64,000 nt of DNA, from positions 54,318 through 118,317 of the IMG/VR virus record IMGVR_UViG_3300008261_000027, one strand, 5' to 3'. Positions 29,582 to 54,332 of the stretch are shown piece by piece. The position numbers were made by a program, and so were the translations under genes. Each line of letters begins with the position of its first letter. The first letter of the stretch is position 1. The DNA is from a virus. The notes under the pieces were generated by a model. The model was given only the letters and a program-made list of their open reading frames with translations. It searched no databases and was not told the origin of the DNA.

Positions 29582-30279
29582 TGCCTAGAAAACGAACCCA
29601 AAAAGTGTATTTTGGGGAAGATCAAGAAAAGGCGGTAGTTAGATACTTAGAAAGTTCAGACGAAGCAGAAAAAAACAAGATATTCAACGAATATTTACGA
29701 GAACCCCTGATTATCATGGTTGAAAGTATTATAAGAAGATACAAATTGTATAGGAAAGACTATGAATTTGAAGATCTTCATACCGACACCATGTCTTTTT
29801 TAATAACAAAAATTAACAAATTCGACCACACAAAAAATCACAAAGCTTATTCCTACTTTGGCACAATATGTAAAAATTACCTCATGGGTGCCATTCAAAA
29901 AGACACAAAAGAAACGAATAGAAGTGTGTCCTATGAGGATATTTCAGAGGATATTGAGAGTAGAGTAGATTATTCATATACAATTGATGCAACCTTTATT
30001 GATTACGGTGATGTTATTGTTCATTTGGTCAATAAACTAGAGAAATTTATAGAAGAAGAAGATTTAACTGAAAATGAGAAAAAACTAGGGTATGCACTAT
30101 TAGAAATTTTTAGCAACTTTGAAAAGATATTCCAAATCGGGGATGGTAATAAATTCAATAAGAATTTGATTCTCTTGTCTTTAAGAGAAATGACCTCATT
30201 ATCAACAAAAGAAATTAGAATTTCTCTTAAAAAGTTTAAAACTCTATACGACGGCGTTTTAGGTGGATTTTTAGATTAA
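29581..30279 (+). CDS. gp55-like late sigma factor
   Basis: 232 residues (T4 gp55 is 185). Start shares its A with the previous stop (TAATG). The region EPLIIMVESIIRRYKLYRKD, YEFEDLHTDTMSFLITKINK, HKAYSYFGTICKNYLMGAIQ is sigma region 2 in the divergent late-phage form, with Phe/Tyr residues for -10 recognition. The C-terminal region 4 is weak. T4 gp55 directs host RNA polymerase to late promoters TATAAATA; here the likely target is the TATTTAT element seen upstream of structural genes. Confidence 0.75.
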   Translation: MPRKRTQKVYFGEDQEKAVVRYLESSDEAEKNKIFNEYLREPLIIMVESIIRRYKLYRKDYEFEDLHTDTMSFLITKINKFDHTKNHKAYSYFGTICKNYLMGAIQKDTKETNRSVSYEDISEDIESRVDYSYTIDATFIDYGDVIVHLVNKLEKFIEEEDLTENEKKLGYALLEIFSNFEKIFQIGDGNKFNKNLILLSLREMTSLSTKEIRISLKKFKTLYDGVLGGFLD

Positions 30280-52152: not shown

Positions 52153-52184
52153 TTAGACATTAGTTAGACATTTTTTTAGACATT
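52153..52184. promoter_or_regulatory. phased direct repeats in the chaperone divergent promoter region
   Basis: TTAGACATT occurs at 52153, 52164 and 52176 (11 and 12 bp apart, one helical turn), with a partial copy GACATT at 52148. It sits 70 bp before the clp gene and 75 bp before the Hsp20 gene. Regular phasing suggests a protein-binding operator array. Confidence 0.55.
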
Positions 52185-52253: not shown

Positions 52254-54272
52254 ATGTCGGTAGATTTCAGTTACGAGGATTCCCCAAAACAAAACACCAA
52301 AAACAGAAGAAGTGCAACTAATACACCGGTATTAGACAACTTCTCTAGAGATCTTAACAGATTAGCCAAAGAAGGTAAAATTGATCCTGTGGTTGGTAGA
52401 GATAAGGAAGTTAAAAGAATTGCTCAAATTCTTTCTAGGAAAAAAAAGAATAACGCTGTTATTGTTGGTGAAGCTGGTGTTGGTAAGTCAGCATTGGTTG
52501 AGAAGCTAGCTCTATTAATAACAAATGGCGATTGCCCATCAAATTTAATAGATAAAAGAATTGTTTCACTAGATCTCACTTCATTAGTAGCTGGTACAAA
52601 ATATCGAGGTCAATTTGAAGAAAGAATCAAGGCAATATTACATGAGTTACAGGAAAATACTGATGTAATTGTCTTTATCGATGAATTACACACAATGGTT
52701 GGTGCCGGAAATGCCAGTGGATCAATGGATGCTGCAAACATTTTAAAACCAGCATTGGCTAGAGGTGAAATTCAATGCATTGGAGCAACAACTTTTGATG
52801 AATTTAAAAAACATATTGAAAAAGATGGTGCATTGGTAAGAAGATTTCAAAAAATAATCTTGAATGAACCCACGGAAGCCGAAACTGTTGAAATTCTAAA
52901 TAATCTTAAACAGTCTTATCAATTTTATCATAAAGTGAATTATGAACCAGGGGTTATTGAGACAATAGTTAAGTTATGTTCAAGATATATAACAGATAGA
53001 CAATTTCCCGATAAAGCAATTGATATTTTAGATGAATTAGGATCGGAGAAAAGAGTCATTACTAAAGTACCTGATTCAATAGAAAAACTAAATAATGAGG
53101 TCTCCGAATTAAAGTTAAAAAAGATTGAGGTTGTTAAAAAACAAAACTACGAAATAGCCGCAAAAATAAGAGATGAAGAAAAAAGGGTTGAGAAAAAATT
53201 AGAAGAGGAAAAAGCAAAATGGTTAGACAAGCAAAAAAATAATTTGATTCCGGTTACAATAGAAGATGTTTATACCATGATATCATCAACAACCGGTATT
53301 CCAATCAATAAGATCGATAGTAAAGAGGTTTCAAATTTATTAAATCTGGAATCTATTTTATCTGAAAAAATTATTGGGCAAGACAAAGCAATATCAACAA
53401 TATCTAAAGCGATACGCAGAAATAGAGTTGGTATTAAAGACGGTGCAAAGCCAATAGGATCATTTATATTCCTTGGTTCCACAGGTGTGGGGAAGACATA
53501 CTTAGCTAAAACATTGGCTGAACAAATCTTCGGTTCTCAGGATAAAGTTGTTAGAGTCGATATGAGTGAGTTCATGGAGAAGCATGCCGTGTCTAGATTG
53601 ATTGGCTCACCTCCAGGTTATGTTGGATATGATGAAGGTGGTCAATTAACTGAAAAAATAAAAAATAATCCTTTTTCAGTAATACTATTTGACGAGATTG
53701 AAAAAGCCCATAAAGATGTGTTTAATATTTTGTTACAAATATTAGATGAGGGTCATTTAACAGATTCATTTGGTAGAAAAGTAAACTTTACAAATACCCT
53801 AATTATAATGACATCAAATGTTGGTGCTAAGAAAGTTTCTGAATTTGGTGGTGGTGTCGGATTTGCAACAAATGGTAGCGATCTCCAAAAGGACATTGTT
53901 AAGAAAACCATGATTCAAAAAGCGTTGAAACAACAATTCAATCCTGAGTTCTTGAATAGAATTGATGATATCATTTTATTTGACCCATTAGAAAGCGACA
54001 CATTGAAAAAGATTGTCAAACTAGAGTTAGATAAATTGGTTAAAAGATTAAAAGAAAAAAATTATATTATTTCTTTTGATCAAAGTGTTGTAAATGAAAT
54101 TTTAAACATGAACACTGAAAAAGAATTCGGTGCAAGACCAATAAAAAGAATAATCCAGAATTTATGTGAAGATTTTATTAGCGACGAGATCTTAAAAGGT
54201 AATATTTTAGAAGATAGTCTGGTAAAACTCACTTTTAAAGATGGTTTACAGATAAAAACGAAAATAATATAA
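52254..54272 (+). CDS. ClpC-like AAA+ unfoldase lacking the N-domain
   Basis: 672 residues with two AAA+ modules. Module 1: VVGRDKEVKRI, GEAGVGKSA (72-80), VIVFIDELH. A UVR-like coiled segment around 282-315 (LKLKKIEVVKKQNYEIAAKI). Module 2: GSTGVGKTYLAKT (408-420), YVGYDEGGQLTE, VILFDEIEKAH, MTSNVGAKKV. The folded N-domain of ClpC/ClpA is missing, and MecA-type input is therefore unlikely. The VGF tripeptide (535-537) sits in the loop that in ClpC docks on ClpP. It may redirect host ClpP or act alone as a disaggregase. No ClpP gene in the window. Confidence 0.9.
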   Translation: MSVDFSYEDSPKQNTKNRRSATNTPVLDNFSRDLNRLAKEGKIDPVVGRDKEVKRIAQILSRKKKNNAVIVGEAGVGKSALVEKLALLITNGDCPSNLIDKRIVSLDLTSLVAGTKYRGQFEERIKAILHELQENTDVIVFIDELHTMVGAGNASGSMDAANILKPALARGEIQCIGATTFDEFKKHIEKDGALVRRFQKIILNEPTEAETVEILNNLKQSYQFYHKVNYEPGVIETIVKLCSRYITDRQFPDKAIDILDELGSEKRVITKVPDSIEKLNNEVSELKLKKIEVVKKQNYEIAAKIRDEEKRVEKKLEEEKAKWLDKQKNNLIPVTIEDVYTMISSTTGIPINKIDSKEVSNLLNLESILSEKIIGQDKAISTISKAIRRNRVGIKDGAKPIGSFIFLGSTGVGKTYLAKTLAEQIFGSQDKVVRVDMSEFMEKHAVSRLIGSPPGYVGYDEGGQLTEKIKNNPFSVILFDEIEKAHKDVFNILLQILDEGHLTDSFGRKVNFTNTLIIMTSNVGAKKVSEFGGGVGFATNGSDLQKDIVKKTMIQKALKQQFNPEFLNRIDDIILFDPLESDTLKKIVKLELDKLVKRLKEKNYIISFDQSVVNEILNMNTEKEFGARPIKRIIQNLCEDFISDEILKGNILEDSLVKLTFKDGLQIKTKII

Positions 54273-54307: not shown

Positions 54308-54332
54308 CACATATATTTATATGTCTATAGGT

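Follow-up and report, generated by a model that had tools for sequence, protein, structure and literature searches.

A ClpC-like open reading frame at positions 52254‒54272 (+ strand) of the window, the 64,000-nucleotide stretch analyzed here (positions 54318‒118317 of the 118,317-bp virus record IMGVR_UViG_3300008261_000027), encodes a 672-residue Hsp100 unfoldase that lacks the N-domain and retains a ClpP-docking loop, and the same record encodes a complete ClpP outside the window. We consider it probable, at roughly 60%, that the phage owns an ATP-dependent protease of the ClpCP type and that this protein is its unfoldase component. Gene content, domain composition, intact catalytic and docking motifs, conservation, and co-occurrence with ClpP are direct results of sequence comparison, and from them we infer the assembly, docking partner, regulation, and substrates of the complex.

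A ClpC-type unfoldase without the N-domain

The clpC gene starts with ATG, a single in-frame codon separates this ATG from the upstream stop, and the gene is essentially the longest reading of its frame. Pfam matches cover AAA (residues 69‒203), AAA_lid_9 (208‒308), AAA_2 (399‒573, E = 8e-68), and ClpB_D2-small (579‒657). A UVR motif (residues 281‒314, E = 3.8e-6) lies in a UVR-type M-domain coiled coil assigned by Pfam, alignment, and model to residues 272‒335 (53067‒53258, +). The family alignment places the D1 Walker A motif GEAGVGKS at residues 72‒79 (52467‒52490, +) and Walker B VIVFIDE at 138‒144 (52665‒52685, +); in D2, Walker A GSTGVGKT is at 408‒415 (53475‒53498, +), Walker B SVILFDE at 475‒481 (53676‒53696, +), and the sensor-2 motif GARP at 626‒629 (54129‒54140, +). 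Thus, both the two full AAA+ modules and the UVR-like coil of the preliminary description, which was made from this sequence alone, were confirmed. In an alignment of 60 non-redundant phage orthologues, mostly 74‒85% identical and three at 46‒54%, the Walker motifs of both modules, the Arg fingers, and the sensors are kept, as are the pore-loop tyrosines Y117 (60/60) and Y456 (52/60).

Among solved sequences, S. aureus ClpC scores highest (730 bits), followed by B. subtilis ClpC (715 bits). ClpA identity was ruled out by the presence of the M-domain and a TIGR02639 equivalog score of 708.6 bits, below the cut-off of 993. ClpB identity was ruled out by the short M-domain, the presence of the GF loop, and an equivalog score of 799.4 bits, below the cut-off of 1232.1. 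In the tree, the phage ClpCs fall inside a 20-row group (SH-aLRT 99) with all sampled Bacteroidota ClpCs and two unclassified bacterial ones; a single phage clade within this group is unsupported. Since the window also holds terminase, portal, and major head protein genes, the phage nature of the record is supported, and the earlier assignment of a ClpC-type protein to a phage holds. Many records labeled as phage that match ClpC (human fecal and Listeria sets) look bacterial and were excluded as evidence.

The absence of an N-terminal repeat domain, also part of the preliminary description, was confirmed, as Clp_N was not found by Pfam, by alignment, or in the upstream frame. Since the alignment to solved ClpCs begins at ClpC residue 144‒154, the whole N-domain is missing. 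A short leader (residues 1‒25; 52254‒52328, +), defined by the family alignment, replaces the approximately 145-residue domain, and its residues V3, D4, F5, and E8 (V-D-F..E pattern) are conserved in 54‒57 of 60 relatives. Among the best 80 bacterial matches, no N-domain-less ClpC was found, each having at least 121 in-frame upstream residues. A search of 17 related records and 6 huge-phage genomes gave no stand-alone Clp_N, and no ClpS adaptor was found on the 12 phage records searched. Judged by sequence, the 672-residue protein is one that works like or derives from ClpC (Hsp100 class I), and it is an N-domain-less variant rather than a canonical ClpC because Clp_N is absent while the AAA+ modules, M-domain, and loop are all present.

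Conservation of the ClpP-docking loop

The tripeptide VGF at residues 535‒537 (53856‒53864, +), proposed earlier as the ClpP-docking element, is aligned to identical letters in the docking loop of B. subtilis ClpC. [VIM]GF occurs in all 60 non-redundant phage orthologues, with G and F invariant. Our bacterial comparison set comprised 80 relatives: 63 complete ClpC-type proteins (M-domain of 63‒65 residues), 16 ClpB-type proteins (recognized by an M-domain of 122‒129 residues), and one truncated ClpC unscorable at the loop. At the loop position, G is found in 63/63 and F in 62/63 of the complete ClpC-type proteins, and all 16 ClpB-type proteins have a gap. In the AlphaFold2 model of the phage ClpC (mean pLDDT 79), helices 525‒531 and 543‒561 of D2 flank a loop (residues 533‒538) that is modeled with low confidence and is probably flexible, so that VGF does lie in the docking loop, as the preliminary description required. 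The top Foldseek matches of the model are ClpC chains from ClpC-ClpP and MecA-ClpC-ClpP complexes.

Pairwise dN/dS of the phage clpC against four orthologues is 0.06‒0.09, with dS near saturation; a comparison with a further orthologue (L058) was left out because indels broke the codon register. These ratios point to strong purifying selection. Taken together, the Walker motifs, pore loops, loop conservation, and low dN/dS indicate that selection maintains clpC for unfoldase activity and for a docking loop of the ClpP type. In a near-identical contig (IMGVR_UViG_3300021599_002162, locus 9990‒11935), approximately 70 bp are gone exactly across the VGF loop, together with a frameshift, and the ORF ends at 529 residues; this may be an assembly error or a loss variant. 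This deletion is the kind of observation expected if clpC were a functionless passenger gene or an assembly artefact, an explanation to which we give almost no weight in view of the purifying selection, the 281 viral candidate relatives, and their conserved synteny; conservation already contradicts the passenger reading.

A ClpP encoded on the same record

The phage clpP gene (224 residues; PF00574, 190 bits; E = 1.5e-57) lies at positions 2435‒3106 on the − strand of the record (G000:C1), outside the window and approximately 104 kb from clpC. The Ser-His-Asp triad is intact in 81/81 phage ClpPs. The best PHROGs matches of the protein are all head-protease families, the sole competing ClpP-proper family there being phrog_1827. 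A head-maturation protease was nevertheless ruled out by family scores, with 236.7 bits for the true ClpP model NF011091 (below its cut-off of 361) and 62.4 bits for a ClpP-related head protease model, and by the location of clpP, approximately 89‒99 kb away from the genes for capsid, portal, and terminase.

Among 11 relative contigs of at least 200 kb, chosen for carrying one of the two genes, nine encode a single ClpC and a single ClpP, with the two genes 105‒165 kb apart and in every case on opposite strands. The other two, which may be fragments, encode ClpP without ClpC. No ClpX-type (other D2-small) protein was found on these 11 contigs. The preliminary description had proposed that the phage routes proteins to host ClpP. 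The conserved docking loop agrees with this proposal, but the phage ClpP was invisible from the window. Since ClpP is encoded on the record and in nine of the 11 long relatives, a phage-encoded ClpCP is likelier than sole reliance on host ClpP. It counts against a phage-owned ClpCP that clpC and clpP do not share an operon and that two long contigs have ClpP without ClpC. Alternatively, host ClpP would be the main docking partner of the phage ClpC, which would thereby redirect the host peptidase, and the phage ClpP would have another function. Such docking would be in line with a VGF loop whose tripeptide type matches that of Bacteroidota ClpC, with the branching of the phage ClpC among these proteins, with the presence of ClpP in all 61 sampled Bacteroidota genomes, and with the alteration of the phage ClpP pocket at Y62. 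However, a ClpP co-encoded in nearly all long relatives would be redundant if host ClpP were used, and we regard this alternative as unlikely.

Several huge phages carry further combinations of these genes. The Mahaphages LR745206 and LR756502 encode ClpC and two full-length ClpPs each (LR745206.1 at 75 kb and 124 kb; LR756502.1 at 59 kb and 112 kb; loci L181, L177, L174, and L179), and the 75-kb copy of LR745206 is 61% identical to the ClpP of our record. One ClpP of LR745206 has His62 and the other Tyr62, which recalls the ClpP1/ClpP2 division of labor. A third, shorter ClpP-like gene is present in LR756502 and LR756504. The Lak phages MK250020 and MK250016 (loci L171 and L172) encode ClpP and a weak D2-small match, possibly ClpX-like, with no Clp_N domain, and a second ClpP-like frame with an in-frame TAA.

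Histidine at the pocket and gate position of ClpP

At the docking-pocket and gate position of E. coli Tyr62 (S. aureus Y63), His is found in 81/81 phage ClpPs, while Tyr is found in 35/35 sampled Bacteroidota ClpPs. By our own matching of the numbering, we take a tyrosine of M. smegmatis ClpP to be the equivalent of E. coli Y62. The M. smegmatis study called its tyrosine conserved in all ClpP sequences (PMC6889138). B. subtilis ClpP Y62 mutants showed greatly diminished caseinolysis (PMC11005422), and S. aureus ClpP Y63A and E. coli ClpP Y76A are activated variants at the same position (PMC9035409, PMC6853987). His in the phage pocket could weaken docking, which counts against a phage-owned ClpCP. 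W30 and M48 of the phage ClpP are also fixed and phage-specific within the sample. Positions 60, 92, and 112 were dropped as phage-specific changes because Bacteroidota ClpPs vary there too. Since the AlphaFold2 model of the phage ClpP, built on a shallow alignment, reached a mean pLDDT of only 35, we make no structural statement on this protein.

The activated Ala variants and the fixation of His throughout the phage ClpPs, against none of the 35 from Bacteroidota, would also fit a peptidase that is pocket-altered or constitutively open and that dysregulates host ClpP by mixing with it, with ClpC as an accessory. However, His is not Ala and may differ from it in effect, and the other pocket positions (60, 82, 92, and 112) are within or near the Bacteroidota range. 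We consider this explanation distinctly improbable.

M-domain tip and adaptor independence

Residues Y299, R306, and D307 at the M-domain tip (53148‒53174, +) correspond by alignment to S. aureus ClpC F436, R443, and D444, which form head-to-head repression contacts in the M-domain (PMC5699869). They are present in 59/60, 60/60, and 60/60 phage ClpCs, respectively. S. aureus ΔN-ClpC with an intact M-domain shows no proteolysis, and additional F436A, R443A, or ΔM changes give full-rate GFP-SsrA degradation (PMC5699869, PMC12583610). The adaptor independence proposed in the preliminary description therefore stands only in part: classical N-domain adaptors have no docking site on the phage ClpC, but the repressing tip is kept. 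Because the tip is kept and S. aureus ΔN-ClpC is inactive, a ClpC without the N-domain cannot be assumed to run unrestrained. The phage ClpC may need an activator, and none was found, which counts against a phage-owned ClpCP. By analogy with S. aureus ClpC, we infer that repression is either weakened by Tyr at position 436 together with other changes or countered by a phage factor acting on the M-domain.

The divergent hsp20 gene and the shared intergenic region

A 120-residue Hsp20 is encoded divergently upstream of clpC (51716‒52078, −), as identified from the ORF list, Pfam, and synteny. This arrangement is conserved in 58 of the 79 relatives with enough upstream sequence, and the remaining 21 have no hsp20 match. 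Beside hsp20 lie genes for a KTSC-domain protein (51404‒51649, −) and a nucleotidyltransferase-like protein (50619‒51404, −), and the window also encodes a 483-residue protein (56848‒58299, −) whose start resembles a signal peptide and which contains long low-complexity repeats of Ser/Ala and Lys/Glu/Ser.

The region between hsp20 and clpC (52079‒52253) contains a putative promoter element, TTTG-N19-TATTATTG (52201‒52231, +), with one mismatch to TANNTTTG. The full pattern TTTG-N19/20-TANNTTTG, the Bacteroidota housekeeping promoter form, occurs upstream of clpC in 35 of 53 unique relative regions against 0.4 expected. Such an element would fit host transcription. An operator-like element of three TTAGACATT repeats and a palindrome GACAnnnTGTC lies at 52153‒52189, and both repeats and palindromes are conserved in the corresponding regions of relatives. 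A further GACAnnnTGTC palindrome is found at 29785.

The preliminary description also raised the possibility of a disaggregase formed with Hsp20. The conserved neighbor agrees with this part of the proposal, but with the ClpP loop present in 60/60 phage ClpCs, the protein is less likely to act purely as a disaggregase. As a full alternative, ClpC and Hsp20 would form a ClpP-independent chaperone or disaggregase protecting phage protein assembly, which would account for the adjacency of hsp20 and the shared repeat-bearing intergenic region. The long ClpB-type M-domain is the contact for DnaK, and the phage M-domain is of the short ClpC type. The ClpP loop, invariant in the 60 phage orthologues, is missing from all 16 ClpB-type relatives, and 21 of the 79 loci have no hsp20 match. 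Although moraphages also encode DnaK/DnaJ (PMC12619734), we judge this alternative to be rather improbable.

Proposed mechanism and significance

In the favored phage-owned ClpCP, hexamers of the N-domain-less ClpC would recruit substrates either by direct capture at the D1 pore or via an M-domain-binding phage factor. ATP hydrolysis in D1 and D2 would thread them through ClpC, and they would pass via the VGF-docked D2 face into the ClpP chamber. The chamber would most likely be the phage's own ClpP, and docking to host ClpP or mixed rings are also possible. Loss of the N-domain would uncouple the phage ClpC from host N-domain adaptors, while the conserved M-domain tip would still permit a repressed state. 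Host defense proteins, suggested earlier as targets, are a speculative choice of substrate. We tentatively extend this model to an insulated, dedicated protease, a possibility that we hold to be somewhat doubtful, in which a natural N-domain-less ClpC ignores host adaptors and a His-fixed ClpP differs from characterized ClpPs in gate opening and partner choice, as a peptidase accepting its own partner only, as an open-gated peptidase, or in mixed rings with host ClpP.

The large freshwater phage family carrying ClpC and ClpP probably infects Bacteroidota and, to judge from its genes, may operate a degradation machine of its own instead of just borrowing host ClpP. This suggests that widespread freshwater phages supply every part of an ATP-dependent protease, whose role during infection is presumably to reshape the host or phage proteome. 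The pair offers natural test cases for the role of a ClpC without the N-domain but with a repressing M-domain, and for the need for the near-universal pocket and gate tyrosine of ClpP.

Comparison with known systems

Bacterial ClpCs of B. subtilis and S. aureus share with the phage ClpC two AAA+ modules, a short UVR-type M-domain, a (V/L/I)GF loop, approximately 50% identity, and R443/D444 with an aromatic residue at 436. They differ in having the N-domain, the site for MecA and phosphoarginine substrates; in the phage proteins, the E435 position is mostly N, and F436 is replaced by Y in 59/60. The S. aureus ΔN-ClpC constructs (PMC5699869, PMC12583610) have nearly the same domain content as the phage ClpC. 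However, they are laboratory deletions, inactive unless the M-domain is mutated, while the phage ClpC is natural and conserved and has a short conserved leader. The ClpB/ClpL disaggregases have the Hsp100 fold in common with the phage ClpC, and an Hsp20 partnership is known for ClpB; unlike the phage ClpC, the ClpB-type relatives in our alignment have no GF loop and a long M-domain.

Like the phage described here, moraphages (PMC12619734) and Mahaphages (PMC7162821) are freshwater or huge phages linked to Bacteroidota. Moraphages, freshwater Bacteroidota phages that reach 307 kb, have a near-core 'ClpA' (VOG02072) and no RNA polymerase of their own, and some encode HSP20 (PMC12619734). They are likely the lineage of our record, on the circumstantial basis of relatives of up to 310 kb, the Bacteroidota-type ClpC, and hsp20. 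Glutamine synthetase was found in 5 of the 12 related records searched and is not in the record holding the window. The main texts on moraphages and Mahaphages (PMC12619734, PMC7162821) are silent on a ClpP partner, on the lack of the N-domain, and on the altered pocket residue, and the open literature that we searched holds no description of an N-domain-less, M-domain-bearing ClpC with a His62 ClpP.

ClpA and ClpP together have been reported in jumbo phages, with seven Clp proteins in Atu_ph07 (PMC6102473), and single Clp components occur across jumbo phages (PMC7824862). In Proteobacteria jumbo phages (Atu_ph07, RaK2, GAP32, CBB, slurp01/PBECO4, PA5oct, and Phosso), ClpA and ClpP are both encoded and unlinked, as here, and most of these ClpAs have an IG(F/M)-type loop resembling that of the phage ClpC. 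The clpA genes of Xanthomonas XaC1, RaK2, CBB, GAP32, and slurp01 (loci L363, L357, L360, L358, and L361) lie between the same two oppositely oriented neighbors, annotated as virion structural proteins in RaK2, CBB, and XaC1, which hints at a virion-assembly role in those phages. A full-length ClpP was found in 8 of 10 Proteobacteria jumbo-phage records searched, and these eight main ClpPs have Tyr, or Phe in CBB, at position 62, in contrast to His here. Nine jumbo-phage ClpAs have 146‒191 residues before D1 (with a Clp_N match in 5/9) and no M-domain, the opposite of the phage ClpC on both counts. Since the jumbo-phage ClpAs are extended and have no M-domain, the phage ClpC, which lacks the N-domain, has the M-domain, and is co-encoded with a His62 ClpP, represents a distinct variant.
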